In this document: one piece after another, positions 26,387 through 29,194 of the stretch
Layout of the letters: the number at the start of each line of letters is the position of its first letter
How positions within the stretch are numbered: the first letter of the stretch is position 1
Source of the DNA: a virus
DNA: 29,194 bases
Virus record (IMG/VR): IMGVR_UViG_3300042502_001849
Location: 1 to 29,194 of that record
Direction: 5' to 3' (one strand)
Position numbers and translations under genes: made by a program
The notes under the pieces: model-generated
The model's database searches: none
Told to the model about the DNA's origin: nothing
What the model saw: the letters and a program-made list of their open reading frames with translations, nothing else

Positions 26387-27679
26387 TCAGGCCGCTTTCG
26401 GCTTGCGGCGGCGCTGCAAGTCCTTGATCTGCAACACGTCGGCAGCCCGGGAACGTCTTGTGATTCTGGTCGTCGTGGGTTCGAGTCCCATCAGCCACCC
26501 CATCGGTTCCCCCTCGTAAGCGGCCTCTTCGGAGGCCGTTTTCGTTGGTGCCGGCGGCGCAGGTTGTGCCAGAGTTGTGCCACCGCCGGCCAGGTTGCCT
26601 GCCCATTGGGCCACGTGGCTGCGGCCCAGGTGGGCGTAGCGCTGCACCATGGCCAGGCTGGCCCAGCCGCCCAGCTCCTGCAGCACCGCCAGCGGGGTGC
26701 CTGACTGCACGTGCCAGCTGGCCCAGGTGTGGCGCAGGTCGTGGAATCGCAGCCACGGCAGGCCGGCGCGGGTGCAGGCCTTGCGCCAGGCGGCGCTGCT
26801 GATCTTGCCGGTGGGCGTGTCGGCCACCTGGCGCGGCTTGTCTTCGGGCTTCTCGGCCGGTTCCCAGCGCGGCACCGGGAAGACCCAGCGCTTGTGCTGG
26901 CCGTGCTGCAGGGCCAGCACCTGCAGGGCCTCGGCATTGAGCGGCACGCTGTGCGCCTTGCCGGCCTTCATCTCGTCGCCCTCAAACCAAGCCACCGCGC
27001 GCGGCAGGTCGACCTGCTGCCACGTGAGCAGGCGGATGTTGGTTTCGCGCAGCCCGGTGGCCAGCGCGAATGCCGCCATGGCGCGCAGGTGCGGCGGCAG
27101 CTCGGCCAGCAGCTCGGCCGCCTGGTCGTGGGTGATCCAGGCCACGCGCTTGGCCGGCTCGGCGGCCTTGGTGATGGGCGGCACGGCGTCGAGCCAGCCA
27201 CGCTTGTGGGCGTAGTGCAGCACGGCGCTGAGCTGGGCCATGTGCCGGTTGACGGTGGCGCCGCTGGTGGGCTTGGGCTGCGGCGGGGTGCGGCCGGCGG
27301 CGACGGCGCGCGCGATCTCGCGGCGGTTGACGGCCTCGGCCTTGCGGGCCTTGCTGAGCTGGCGGATGACGGGATCGGTGATCTCGGCCAGCATGCGGCC
27401 GCGCAGGTGGGCGCTAAGCCAGCGCAGGACGCGCTTGATCTCTTCGATGCTGCGGCGGTGCTGGTGTTCCTCGAGCCAGGCCACGACGGCCTGGTCCCAG
27501 GTTACCGCGGGGGCTTCGCCGAGCCGCCGGGCCCGCCAGAGATCGCGCGCAAGGGTGGCGGCGTATTCCGCCGCCGCGGTGCGGTCGCTGGTGCCAGTGC
27601 TGCGTCGAGCGCGCTGGCCTGCGATCTCGCCGAGGTCAACCCACCACGTGCCTCGTTGGCCGCGCTGATAGAGCCGCAT
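26387..27679 (-). CDS. int: Phage tyrosine integrase
   Basis: This 430-residue protein catalyses site-specific recombination between attP and a host tRNA-His. The N-terminal part (1-60) is an arm-binding-like domain (MRLYQRGQRGTWWVDLGEIA). Residues about 60-165 form the core-binding domain. The catalytic domain shows R211 (ATGLRETNIRLL), a probable K241, H313-D-L-R316-H317, W339 in GGWASLAMVQRYAHL and the nucleophile Y348. The C-terminus is unusual: residues about 393-407 (MGWLMGLEPTTTRIT) are the reverse complement of the tRNA-His core, and 23 more residues read into sequence on the far side. It lacks the features of integron IntI integrases. The start is ATG 27679, which overlaps the xis-like gene by 178 bp. 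Confidence 0.92.
   Translation of the reverse strand: MRLYQRGQRGTWWVDLGEIAGQRARRSTGTSDRTAAAEYAATLARDLWRARRLGEAPAVTWDQAVVAWLEEHQHRRSIEEIKRVLRWLSAHLRGRMLAEITDPVIRQLSKARKAEAVNRREIARAVAAGRTPPQPKPTSGATVNRHMAQLSAVLHYAHKRGWLDAVPPITKAAEPAKRVAWITHDQAAELLAELPPHLRAMAAFALATGLRETNIRLLTWQQVDLPRAVAWFEGDEMKAGKAHSVPLNAEALQVLALQHGQHKRWVFPVPRWEPAEKPEDKPRQVADTPTGKISSAAWRKACTRAGLPWLRFHDLRHTWASWHVQSGTPLAVLQELGGWASLAMVQRYAHLGRSHVAQWAGNLAGGGTTLAQPAPPAPTKTASEEAAYEGEPMGWLMGLEPTTTRITRRSRAADVLQIKDLQRRRKPKAA
26458..26502 (+). other. attP core: 3' part of a tRNA-His(GUG) gene
   Basis: These 45 bases correspond to the 3' portion of tRNA-His. The anticodon loop is TTGTGAT with GTG at 26460-26462. Then come the 3' half of the anticodon stem (TCTGG), a variable loop, the T arm GTGGG-TTCGAGT-CCCAT (26475-26491) and the acceptor strand CAGCCAC (26492-26498). 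C73 is the hallmark of tRNA-His, and an encoded CCA (26500-26502) closes it. The 5' half is absent; sequence to the left is int coding sequence. It is therefore an attachment core that can restore a host tRNA-His gene on integration, with crossover likely in or near the anticodon loop. Lysis genes lie on one side and int on the other, so it reads as attP rather than attL or attR. Confidence 0.85.
26518..26542 (+). terminator. Rho-independent terminator-like hairpin for the late transcript
   Basis: A perfect 7-bp stem CGGCCTC/GAGGCCG (26521-26527 and 26532-26538) with a TTCG tetraloop is followed by TTTT (26539-26542), and the preceding AA can extend the stem. On the plus strand it is a good terminator 15 bp after the tRNA core. 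It may end the rightward late transcript before it runs further antisense through int. It may also be the tRNA-His terminator carried over from a host. It lies inside the int coding region. Confidence 0.7.
26565..26581. repeat. Putative integrase arm-type site, P' side
   Basis: TGTGCCAGAGTTGTGCC is the partner of the 17-bp repeat at 26366-26382, with one mismatch. It lies on the int side of the core, within the int coding sequence. Both arms on one molecule with one core indicate an intact attP. Confidence 0.65.
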
Positions 27680-27861
27680 GCGTCCCCCTGAAACCTGCCG
27701 TACTGGGTGCGAACCCAGGCAATTACGTCTTCGTCCACCAGCACGTAGGCCCGCCCGATGCGCGCCGCTGGCAGGCCGCGATTGTGAATGCAGTCAGAAA
27801 GCGTCTCGGCGCTGGTCTTCAGCGCCGCGGCGGCTTCGTCGAGCGACCAGGTGCTGGGCAT
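27502..27861 (-). CDS. Excisionase-like helix-turn-helix protein
   Basis: This 119-residue protein starts with a MerR/excisionase-type DNA-binding domain (residues 1-60): STWSLDEAAAALKTSAETLS, then IHNRGLPAARIGRAYVLVDEDVIAWVR. This is the common HTH_17-like pattern in phage Xis proteins and directional factors. The C-terminal half is Ala/Pro/Arg-rich and overlaps the start of int in another frame by 178 bp. It may be low-complexity read-through and not folded. Its ATG shares a base with the upstream stop (TGATG). Gene order xis then int, leftward, is standard. Confidence 0.78.
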   Translation of the reverse strand: MPSTWSLDEAAAALKTSAETLSDCIHNRGLPAARIGRAYVLVDEDVIAWVRTQYGRFQGDACGSISAANEARGGLTSARSQASALDAALAPATAPRRRNTPPPLRAISGGPGGSAKPPR

Positions 27862-28172
27862 CAGATCCAGTGCGATGGGCTCAGCGTGCGCGGCAGCGTG
27901 TCGGCCAGCCGGTGCAGCAGTGTCTTGATGGCGGCGCAGTCTTGCACCTGGCCGGCTTCGTCGCGCTGGCGCCAGGCGATGTACCCGAGGCGCGGCTCCA
28001 GCGTCAGCAGCGGGCCGCCAGCGCCGCGCAGATCGATGGTGCAGGGCTGCCGCATGTCGGTGTCGACGCGGTCAGGGATGCCCTGCGCGCGCTCGTCTTC
28101 GGCGCGCTGCTGGGCGGCACGCCAGCGAGCGTGGGCAGCTCGCTGGTGGCGTAGGCTTTTGCGGCGTTGCAT
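27861..28172 (-). CDS. Hypothetical protein of the int/xis operon
   Basis: This 103-residue protein is basic at its N-terminus (MQRRKSLRHQRAAHARWRAA) with a helical Arg/Ala/Glu stretch. A beta-like middle follows (QPCTIDLRGAGGPLLTLEPR, LGYIAWRQRDEAG), then a helical end (CAAIKTLLHRLADTLPRTL). GGAG lies about 10 bp upstream of ATG 28172. It overlaps the xis-like start (TGATG), so the three genes form one leftward operon. No family was recognised. Confidence 0.65.
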   Translation of the reverse strand: MQRRKSLRHQRAAHARWRAAQQRAEDERAQGIPDRVDTDMRQPCTIDLRGAGGPLLTLEPRLGYIAWRQRDEAGQVQDCAAIKTLLHRLADTLPRTLSPSHWI

Positions 28173-28191
28173 GCGTTGAAATCTCCAGATG

Positions 28192-28211
28192 CAGCCTAGA
28201 ACACGTTAGGC
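28192..28211. other. attI-like or half-attC site, leftmost cassette boundary
   Basis: GCCTAGAACAC followed by GTTAGGC (28205-28211) fits the recombination box GTTRRRY preceded by an imperfect inverted box. Sequence to the left, GCAGCCTAGAACAC, resembles the L' side of the attC at 28898-29026 (GCAGCTTAGCTCGAAC). No matching R''-L'' half was found within about 150 bp to the left. It may be an attI-type insertion point or a truncated attC. It separates the int/xis operon from the cassettes. Confidence 0.5.
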
Positions 28212-28454
28212 CCGCAAATGGCGGCCGTGCGCCAGTTCGTCGCCCTTGGTCGCCAGCACATGCGCGGTGTGGCGGTCGATCTGGTTTATGCGCCTGCCGT
28301 CTGGTGCCAATCGCTCGGCGGCACCGCGCAGGTATTGCGCGCACCGCTCGCGCTCGGCGGCCTGTATCTCGCCAAGCATCTGCACCAAATCGCTGTTGCT
28401 GGCGCCGCCTTCAACGGCTTCGCGTAGCGCCTGCGCTTTTGCTTCCATGTCCAT
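28206..28454 (-). CDS. Cassette 1 hypothetical protein
   Basis: This 82-residue protein starts at ATG 28454, preceded by GGAG within GGAGAGCGAAGAC. A GTG at 28478 would add eight residues. It is helical and charged: EAKAQALREAVEGGASNSDL, QMLGEIQAAERERCAQYLRG, INQIDRHTAHVLATKGDELA. The style is that of small accessory phage proteins; no family is named. It fills the cassette between the boundary at 28205 and attC1. Its TAA stop is read from the TTA of GTTAGGC (28206-28208), so the gene ends exactly at the recombination core. It runs leftward, opposite to the usual gene orientation relative to attC. Confidence 0.65.
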   Translation of the reverse strand: MDMEAKAQALREAVEGGASNSDLVQMLGEIQAAERERCAQYLRGAAERLAPDGRRINQIDRHTAHVLATKGDELAHGRHLRA

Positions 28455-28491
28455 GTCTTCGCTCTCCAAGTTGTTCACGCTTCGGAACCAG

Positions 28492-28577
28492 GCCTAACCC
28501 TTCGCACAAGCTGACCGCGGGTGGCAGTCAGCGCTCCGTCGCCACCGCAGCGCGGCAGCTTTCCTCAACCGTTAGAC
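28492..28577 (+). other. Integron attC-like site 1 (86 bp)
   Basis: The outer boxes are GCCTAAC (28492-28498, RYYYAAC) and GTTAGAC (28571-28577, GTTRRRY), imperfectly complementary. Inside, TTCGCACAAGCTGACCGCG pairs with CGCGGCAGCTTTCCTCAA, leaving one unpaired A (AAGCTGACCGCG against AAGCTGCCGCG). A second arm GGTGGC/GCCACC closes the fold. Box order, length and a bulged base on one arm are the structural signs of attC. The orientation is left to right by comparison with aadA-type attC sites (recall, not alignment). Confidence 0.8.
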
Positions 28578-28871
28578 CCCATTCACCAGGGCCGCCGTCT
28601 GGTCGTGCGCGTAGCTGTGCAGCAGGCCCACAATCAGCCCCTGCGGCACGCCGGCATTCTTTGCCGCGTTGATCGCAGCCACGATGGCATCGTCCATGGC
28701 GCGCACAGCCACATCAGTGCGGCGGCTCACGTTTCCAGAAGAAAGCGCCAGCACTTCGGCAACATGCGCCGGGGTTTGTTGGCCCGGCTGCTGATGCAGG
28801 CACTTGCCGGTGGTCTTGCACCAGCTCGGGTTGCAACACACGCTAGCGCCTGGGCATTGGTCTGTGTTCAT
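28572..28871 (-). CDS. Cassette 2 Cys-rich hypothetical protein
   Basis: This 99-residue protein starts at ATG 28871, with AAGGA six bases upstream; the frame upstream crosses attC2 and is not used. The N-terminus is cysteine-rich (DQCPGASVCCNPSWCKTTGK then CLHQQ), suggesting a small metal-binding knuckle. The rest is helical (TPAHVAEVLALSSGNVSRRT, DVAVRAMDDAIVAAINAAKN, GVPQGLIVGLLHSYAHDQTA), the last part looking like a compact helical domain. No family is named. The TAA stop comes from the TTA of GTTAGAC (28572-28574). As in cassette 1, the gene runs leftward and ends at the recombination core. Confidence 0.75.
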   Translation of the reverse strand: MNTDQCPGASVCCNPSWCKTTGKCLHQQPGQQTPAHVAEVLALSSGNVSRRTDVAVRAMDDAIVAAINAAKNAGVPQGLIVGLLHSYAHDQTAALVNGV

Positions 28872-28897
28872 AGTTCCTTTCGCTTCGGGTTGGTGGG

Positions 28898-29026
28898 GCC
28901 TAACCCCTCGCTCAAGCTGACCCGCTACGGCATGCGCCGCCTGGCCGCTACAGTCCTTGTCCATCATTGTCCTTTCGCGGCCAGTCGCCGCATACCTCCG
29001 CGGGCAGCTTAGCTCGAACGTTCGGC
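28898..29026 (+). other. Integron attC-like site 2 (129 bp)
   Basis: The outer boxes are GCCTAAC (28898-28904) and GTTCGGC (29020-29026; one departure from GTTRRRY). CTCGCTCAAGCTGACCCGC pairs with GCGGGCAGCTTAGCTCGAA, again leaving an unpaired A at the same place (AAGCTGACCC against AAGCTGCCC). A second long arm GGCATGCGCCGCCTGGCCGC pairs with GCGGCCAGTCGCCGCATACC, with a loop of about 28 nt. The size and nested palindrome are typical of long attC sites. Confidence 0.82.
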
Positions 29027-29027
29027 T

Positions 29028-29129
29028 TCAAGCTGCGTACTCCTGCTCTGCCATCTCGCAGAAGAAGGAGCACGACGGCAGCGCCTCGTTTCTGCGGCTC
29101 AACGGATTACTGTGTGGAAGCTGAGTCAT
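29028..29129 (-). CDS. Cassette 3 small protein, 33 residues
   Basis: This possible short gene starts at ATG 29129, inside the 3' end of the HNH gene in another frame. It ends TGA at 29028-29030, two bases beyond attC2. The sequence begins MTQLPHSNPLSRRNEALPSC and closes SFFCEMAEQEYAA. Two cysteines four residues apart and an acidic end are seen. No family is known. The position of the stop next to the cassette boundary repeats the pattern of cassettes 1 and 2. It might also be a frameshifted tail of the HNH protein. Confidence 0.4.
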   Translation of the reverse strand: MTQLPHSNPLSRRNEALPSCSFFCEMAEQEYAA

Positions 29130-29194
29130 GACCACTGACCTGCTCCGTGTGGAATCGCCTGTGGCAGTTGACGCAGACCAGCAGGGCTTTGCGG
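29107..29194 (-). CDS. HNH endonuclease, C-terminal fragment cut by the window edge
   Basis: Only the last 28 residues are inside the window, beginning RKALLVCVNCHRRFHTEQVS and ending at TAA 29107-29109. The pattern CVNCHRRFH is the typical C-terminal zinc/HNH segment (CxxC-H followed by a late His) of small HNH nucleases. It runs leftward with the cassette genes. HNH nucleases are common near phage packaging genes and also occur as mobile genes. The rest lies beyond 29194. Confidence 0.75.
   Translation of the reverse strand, partial: RKALLVCVNCHRRFHTEQVSGHDSASTQ

Follow-up and report, generated by a model that had tools for sequence, protein, structure and literature searches.

Does an array of integron-type gene cassettes beside the integration genes of a temperate phage represent a borrowed piece of a bacterial element, or a system that the phage itself owns? 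Integrons are platforms known from bacteria and acquired on occasion by phages, and the question is raised by one end of the IMG/VR virus record IMGVR_UViG_3300042502_001849, of which positions 1 to 29,194 (29,194 nucleotides; hereafter, the window) were analyzed. The window is a linear, incomplete IMG/VR fragment that ends at 29194, and all of the phage records with which it was compared are likewise fragments. The array very probably represents the end, nearest to int, of an integron cassette array carried by a phage, and probably belongs to a phage-owned lineage with reversed cassettes.

The array and its phage context

Terminase, portal, capsid, and tail genes are encoded in the window (Pfam search), and the structural genes are followed by int with an attP core, an excisionase-like gene, a 103-aa ORF (ORF103), and the array (Table 1). 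The phage is temperate and tailed, with hosts of the Burkholderiales type. A free or joined phage genome has this arrangement of structural genes, attP/int, xis, and small genes, indicating that the array is located inside the phage rather than in flanking host DNA. RecE/RecT-like genes and a repressor are found past the array in related phages, and the array is located within the leftward early operon, between the RecE/RecT-like genes and xis-int. An identical attP core adjoins int in many relatives, and in one contig (G038; L217) it is joined to a longer part of the tRNA, resembling a bacterial junction; its tRNA-His identity was taken from the anticodon loop, as ARAGORN made no call. The C-terminal codons of int double as the tRNA-His target.

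Table 1. Features of the int-proximal array end and the adjoining phage genes (window coordinates; a slash within letters marks the recombination point)
Feature	Positions	Strand	Basis
Phage tyrosine integrase (int; phage site-specific integration, not IntI)	26387..27679	-	Pfam Phage_integrase 2e-28
attP core, 45 bp, identical to 3′ end of tRNA-His gene	26458..26502	within 3′ end of int	sequence identity
Excisionase-like HTH protein, overlapping int 5′ end	27502..27861	-	Pfam HTH_17 1.2e-6; PHROG 1840 excisionase 6e-7
ORF103, 103 aa, at position of intI in sister phages	27861..28172	-	comparison with relatives
Proximal array boundary, GCAGCCTAGAACACG/TTAGGC	28191..28211	+	recombination point 28205/28206
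Cassette 1, 366 bp	28206..28571	+ (attC polarity)	G/TT at 28205/28206 and 28571/28572
Cassette 1 gene, 82 aa (P0002), reversed relative to attC	28206..28454	-	codon-usage call
attC 1, 86 bp, GCCTAAC...GTTAGAC	28492..28577	+	CM 44.8 bits, E 8.5e-9 on +
Cassette 2, 449 bp	28572..29020	+	G/TT points
Cassette 2 gene, 99 aa (P0001), reversed	28572..28871	-	PHROG 15190 2e-19
attC 2, 129 bp, GCCTAAC...GTTCGGC	28898..29026	+	CM 84.6 bits, E 4.5e-18 on +
Cassette 3 start, cut by contig end	29021..29194	+	G/TT point

Two repeats in the array had been described as attC sites in an initial annotation. A scan of the window at the Rfam gathering threshold returned 0 matches; therefore, the sites were tested with a purpose-built covariance model (CM) of 41 aligned attC, taken exclusively from chromosomal bacterial loci and run on the window with filters off. 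Both sites matched, significantly on the + strand only, the - strand giving 16.7 bits (E 0.03) at attC 2 and 11.3 bits (E 0.55) at attC 1. Because this independent model favors the + over the - strand by 33–68 bits, attC identity and polarity are firm, and the + strand is the attC top strand. On shuffled sequence, a rule-based attC finder gave no sites, whether over 1.2 Mb or, at looser settings, over 0.84 Mb. Folding of both strands showed the bottom strand to be more stable than the top strand at both sites (-40.6 vs -28.5 and -19.9 vs -17.9 kcal/mol). The unpaired A noted in the initial annotation is real, and is located in the 5′ arm of the + strand in attC 1 and attC 2 alike; an unpaired A in this arm is the canonical polarity mark of the attC top strand. 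RYYYAAC and GTTRRRY boxes, imperfect arms, an extrahelical base, and a foldable bottom strand are present at both sites, the R″ side of attC 2 (GTTCGGC) departing from GTTRRRY by one letter, and a consensus comparison assigned attC 2 to the type of the Rubrivivax chromosomal integron attC.

The coordinates, boxes, and lengths first given for the two sites were upheld, the GTTAGGC boundary placed near 28205 is present at 28205–28211, and the two complete cassettes follow from the G/TT points as originally delimited. It had also been correctly observed that the window encodes no integron integrase (IntI): only the phage int answers the profile TIGR02249, at 19.8 bits against a cut-off of 265 bits. 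With two attC 320 bp apart and no IntI in 29 kb, the array has the form of a CALIN, one side of which ends at the contig end; neither intI nor the phage-type attI motif of a complete integron was found in the window.

The proximal boundary could be attI-like or attG-like. It is similar in the phages G029 and G021 up to G/TT, the form common to all three being GCCTA ... CG/TTAGGC or similar, and the cassettes diverge directly beyond this point. Insertion at attG (Loot et al. 2024, cited in PMC11389934) is reported to be IntI-dependent and directed to non-attI genomic sites, for which the window boundary could qualify. Unlike attG as reported, the boundary is conserved in three phages before ORF103, which makes it more attI-like, and no empty site for an attG-type insertion was seen at this position.

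Integron integrases and attI in related phages

Approximately 30 IMG/VR contigs carry modules of this kind, as do two prophages within assembled bacterial genomes. Searching with the window int identified phages that are 95–99% identical over parts of the tail-int region, an IntI query of IMG/VR returned 25 contigs, and a scan of IMG/VR for the attC-start pattern yielded 14 stretches, several with long arrays; in 913 kb of related phage sequence, the CM identified 134 attC at E < 0.01. The window and G043 share 95–97% identity from tail to int, and this similarity ends at 27861, where G043 carries intI. Full-length IntI (425–437 bits, above the curated cut-off) is encoded in six contigs whose int is 66–99% identical to that of the window, and intI in the relatives is placed between xis and the array, at the position of ORF103. 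The sister phages G033, G043, G037, and others carry intI, attI, and a cassette array, that is, complete integrons. Of the bacterial assemblies, a contig of a Burkholderiales genome (G435) shows the full int-xis-intI-array order with an IntI that is 72% identical, and the second (G543; C13; L303 488-5967) contains a prophage-like intI-xis-int arrangement with a phage-type IntI (63%) and a reversed array. The presence of the module in these two assemblies rules out a one-off assembly error.

The best solved relative of the phage IntI is IntI4 (2a3v; E 1.8e-79, full length), and dN/dS values of 0.16–0.49 indicate purifying selection. In a tree of 58 IntI, 18 phage and prophage IntI are set apart from chromosomal IntI with support of 99/99 and in 98% of bootstrap trees, the value 99/99 applying to the group after L270/G543 was relabelled as prophage from its surroundings, later than the first tree; the final tree leaves out L245, which is frameshifted and has a very long branch. 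The IntI from the phages that Qi et al. described are placed on the chromosomal side, and chromosomal Burkholderiales IntI, prophages excepted, share at most approximately 63% identity with the phage IntI. An IntI-like gene of the virus Rctr41k (KX853513.1 4680-5678, L269; annotated as xerD; 47.6%) was considered and set aside, the attC model giving no match there.

Upstream of intI, a conserved motif, GCGGTCGAATTNNNG/TTRRRC, was identified, and the phage sequences diverge immediately past its G/TT; this conservation beside intI, followed directly by divergence, identifies the motif as attI. The attI motif GCGGTCGAATTNNNGTTRRRC adjoins intI in nearly all of the intI-bearing phages, and the phage attI motif is absent from the window, G029, and G021. 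In G035 (L191 14488-14759), and at the same place in G044, the last 47–84 IntI residues remain and the attI motif is intact, possibly representing an intermediate in the loss of IntI.

These comparisons bear on whether the window phage could itself carry a complete integron whose IntI is encoded past the end of this contig or at another place in the genome, as a linear and incomplete contig would allow. This is very unlikely, since the xis-array interval, the site of intI in the relatives, is fully sequenced here and occupied by ORF103, relatives of which were found in G029 and G021 only; both of these phages carry arrays, and no IntI was found in their available sequence (44 kb for G029).

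Direction, content, and exchange of the cassettes

In the phage arrays, 104 cassettes were delimited by CM-defined attC and 85 of these bear genes; all 92 of the 92 genes oppose attC polarity, a total in which the independent cases are fewer than 92 because contigs share cassettes. The genes, called with a purpose-built codon-usage caller, read toward intI/int, and 27 of them stop exactly at the cassette boundary; the usual form, in which the gene runs along attC with its stop near R″, was not found among them. The direction of the longest ORF was rejected as a test in the phage cassettes, which are GC-rich, because it was uninformative (31 vs 27), and codon usage and substitution pattern were therefore used to assign direction. 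Shared phage cassette genes differ by 62/45/197 substitutions at the three codon positions, the third-position excess of coding sequence.

Both cassette genes of the window have a TAA stop created at the cassette boundary and a start beside or inside attC, an alternative in-frame start of P0001 at 28967, inside the attC loop, extending it to 131 aa. Relatives of P0001 are located in the arrays of G020 and G021, and substitutions of 5/2/17 by codon position in its frame indicate that the reversed direction is the coding direction. No Pfam family matched P0002, and a search of 300 Rubrivivax-family genomes, run with no positive control, gave no match to P0001. In phage attC of at least 85 bp, an RBS-like motif and a start codon are present in the loop on the reversed strand in 25/45 and on the top strand in 2/45; the same count gave 17/101 and 7/101 in chromosomal attC. 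The attC arm can encode an N-terminal stretch, for example AGQLERGVRP, which in the window (28898-28967, -) is in frame with the cassette gene.

Among 91 phage cassette proteins, 23 are related to proteins of other phage arrays, and 0 matched the chromosomal integron loci that were sampled. The most frequent known class is that of DNA methyltransferases (5/88 cassette proteins); the others include single matches to an RNA ligase, a helicase, and a nucleotidase, and are mostly unknowns. In chromosomal arrays, 6/6 called genes run in the usual direction, as does the longest ORF in 72/80 cassettes.

Capture of a host chromosomal integron piece by a phage, with no phage-specific system involved, would explain why attC 2 is of the 129-bp Rubrivivax type found in chromosomal arrays, and has published precedents, for example in Vibrio anguillarum phages (PMC9892861). 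This origin is nevertheless quite improbable, given the uniform reversal of the phage cassette genes against the usual direction of the chromosomal ones, the separate IntI group, and the relationship of the cassette proteins to other phage arrays rather than to the sampled chromosomal loci. The presence of intI and attI in near-identical phages, together with the reversed genes, likewise speaks against recent capture of a bacterial array. Of the two possibilities raised in the initial annotation, a phage-carried CALIN-like array near int/xis is retained, and a fusion of host array and phage DNA is not, as the module order recurs elsewhere.

The cassette content differs among near-identical phages (the window, G033, and G043), and cassettes are shared between phages from different samples: G020 and G021 have a single cassette of 466 bp in common (100% identity), and G021 and G043 one of 360 bp (96.7%), with ends no more than 3 nt from G/TT in each case. 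The latter pair connects a contig in which no IntI was found with a phage that encodes IntI. Relative to G029/G028, G031 lacks exactly one cassette, which could have been lost via homologous recombination between near-identical attC. As far as sequence comparison can indicate, these sites would be recombined by IntI. Alternatively, the repeats could be hairpins of an operon, serving as terminators or processing sites, or a MITE-like repeat resembling attC; they do lie between co-directional small genes, and attC are capable of weak termination (PMC9892861). However, the exchanged segments are bounded by G/TT rather than by hairpin ends, the arrays adjoin IntI and attI in sister phages, and the strands are clearly distinguished by a CM of IntI-linked chromosomal attC, which leaves this explanation very little probability. 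A chimeric assembly of phage and bacterial integron, conceivable for a metagenomic contig and singled out for checking in the initial annotation, is hardly credible in view of the recurrence of the junction in other samples (the int-xis-ORF103-array order in G029 and its ORF103-array part in G021), the many contigs and the two prophages that contain the module, and the phage-like family content of the cassette genes.

Proposed operation and relation to known systems

A temperate phage lineage probably owns a long-established integron, with its own IntI, attI, and reversed cassettes whose start signals are often part of the attC loop, that shuffles early accessory genes among phages as a pool separated from bacterial integrons by gene direction, its IntI-less members, the window phage among them, using IntI in trans. 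The attC polarity is canonical, pointing away from the intI/int end, and the cassette genes are reversed; in the proposed mechanism, a phage early promoter at the far end would transcribe the cassettes, then intI if present, and then xis and int as one operon. Owing to their reversal, the genes can be read by a phage early promoter, which an outward promoter at attI could not achieve; the promoter Pc at intI/attI, from which integron cassettes are usually expressed, thus could not serve the phage cassettes if it points outward. In the sister phages, a presumably active phage-specific IntI would insert and excise cassettes at the conserved attI beside its own gene, via the folded-bottom-strand route of integrons. 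The window phage would be a CALIN form lacking IntI, with a conserved boundary in place of attI, and would depend on a related phage or its host to supply IntI in trans, and the cassettes would presumably contribute to fitness. Since bacterial cassettes would be antisense in these arrays, and phage cassettes likewise in bacterial arrays, the two pools should stay apart; the relatives of the cassette proteins, found in other phage arrays and in none of the chromosomal loci sampled, agree with such a separation.

The lambda pL operon contains an accessory region between the recombination genes and xis-int, without recombination sites between its genes, and the phage arrays resemble this region in their placement and in the probable expression of small accessory genes. 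They resemble the sedentary chromosomal integrons of Rubrivivax and other Burkholderiales in attC type, IntI family, and attI-intI-array geometry, but differ from them in the direction of the cassette genes. In the integron form cited in PMC11014356, intI and the cassette genes share a strand, as they do here; intI is reportedly turned relative to attI there, whereas here the cassette genes are turned, and the geometry of intI and attC is canonical.

Phage integrons and CALINs as such are already known: 3 complete integrons, one cassette-less intI, and 17 CALINs were reported in 10,705 phage genomes, the complete integrons deriving from Vibrio, Shewanella, or class 1 integrons, and 5 of 6 tested lytic-phage attC recombined with IntI1 in an assay (Qi et al. 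2023; PMC9892861). Divergent attC directions are mentioned there for one phage (PMC9892861). The present arrays, with or without IntI, resemble those of the temperate and lytic phages of that study, and differ from its scattered cases in that many phages share a separate IntI group, a conserved attI, and reversed genes. A literature search, with preprints and most subscription papers outside it, returned no phage-specific IntI group with a conserved attI and uniformly reversed cassettes.

The platform appears to be phage-owned and rebuilt for phage gene expression. If so, phages would trade early genes, including DNA methyltransferases and many small unknown proteins, in a site-specific manner without homology, which would explain part of the modular variation of early regions, and the reversed cassette pool would not be directly usable by bacterial integrons. 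The system offers a test of whether gene direction separates two cassette pools with common attC types.

In G026 (L227, 12.4 kb), both attC polarities are present, with five attC on the + strand near one end and four on the - strand near the other, and several of them have an unusual GCATAAC box. Arrays of the Rubrivivax-type 129-bp attC are also found in L021 and L022, MAGs titled Rickettsiales and Chloroflexi, and these are probably mis-binned contigs.
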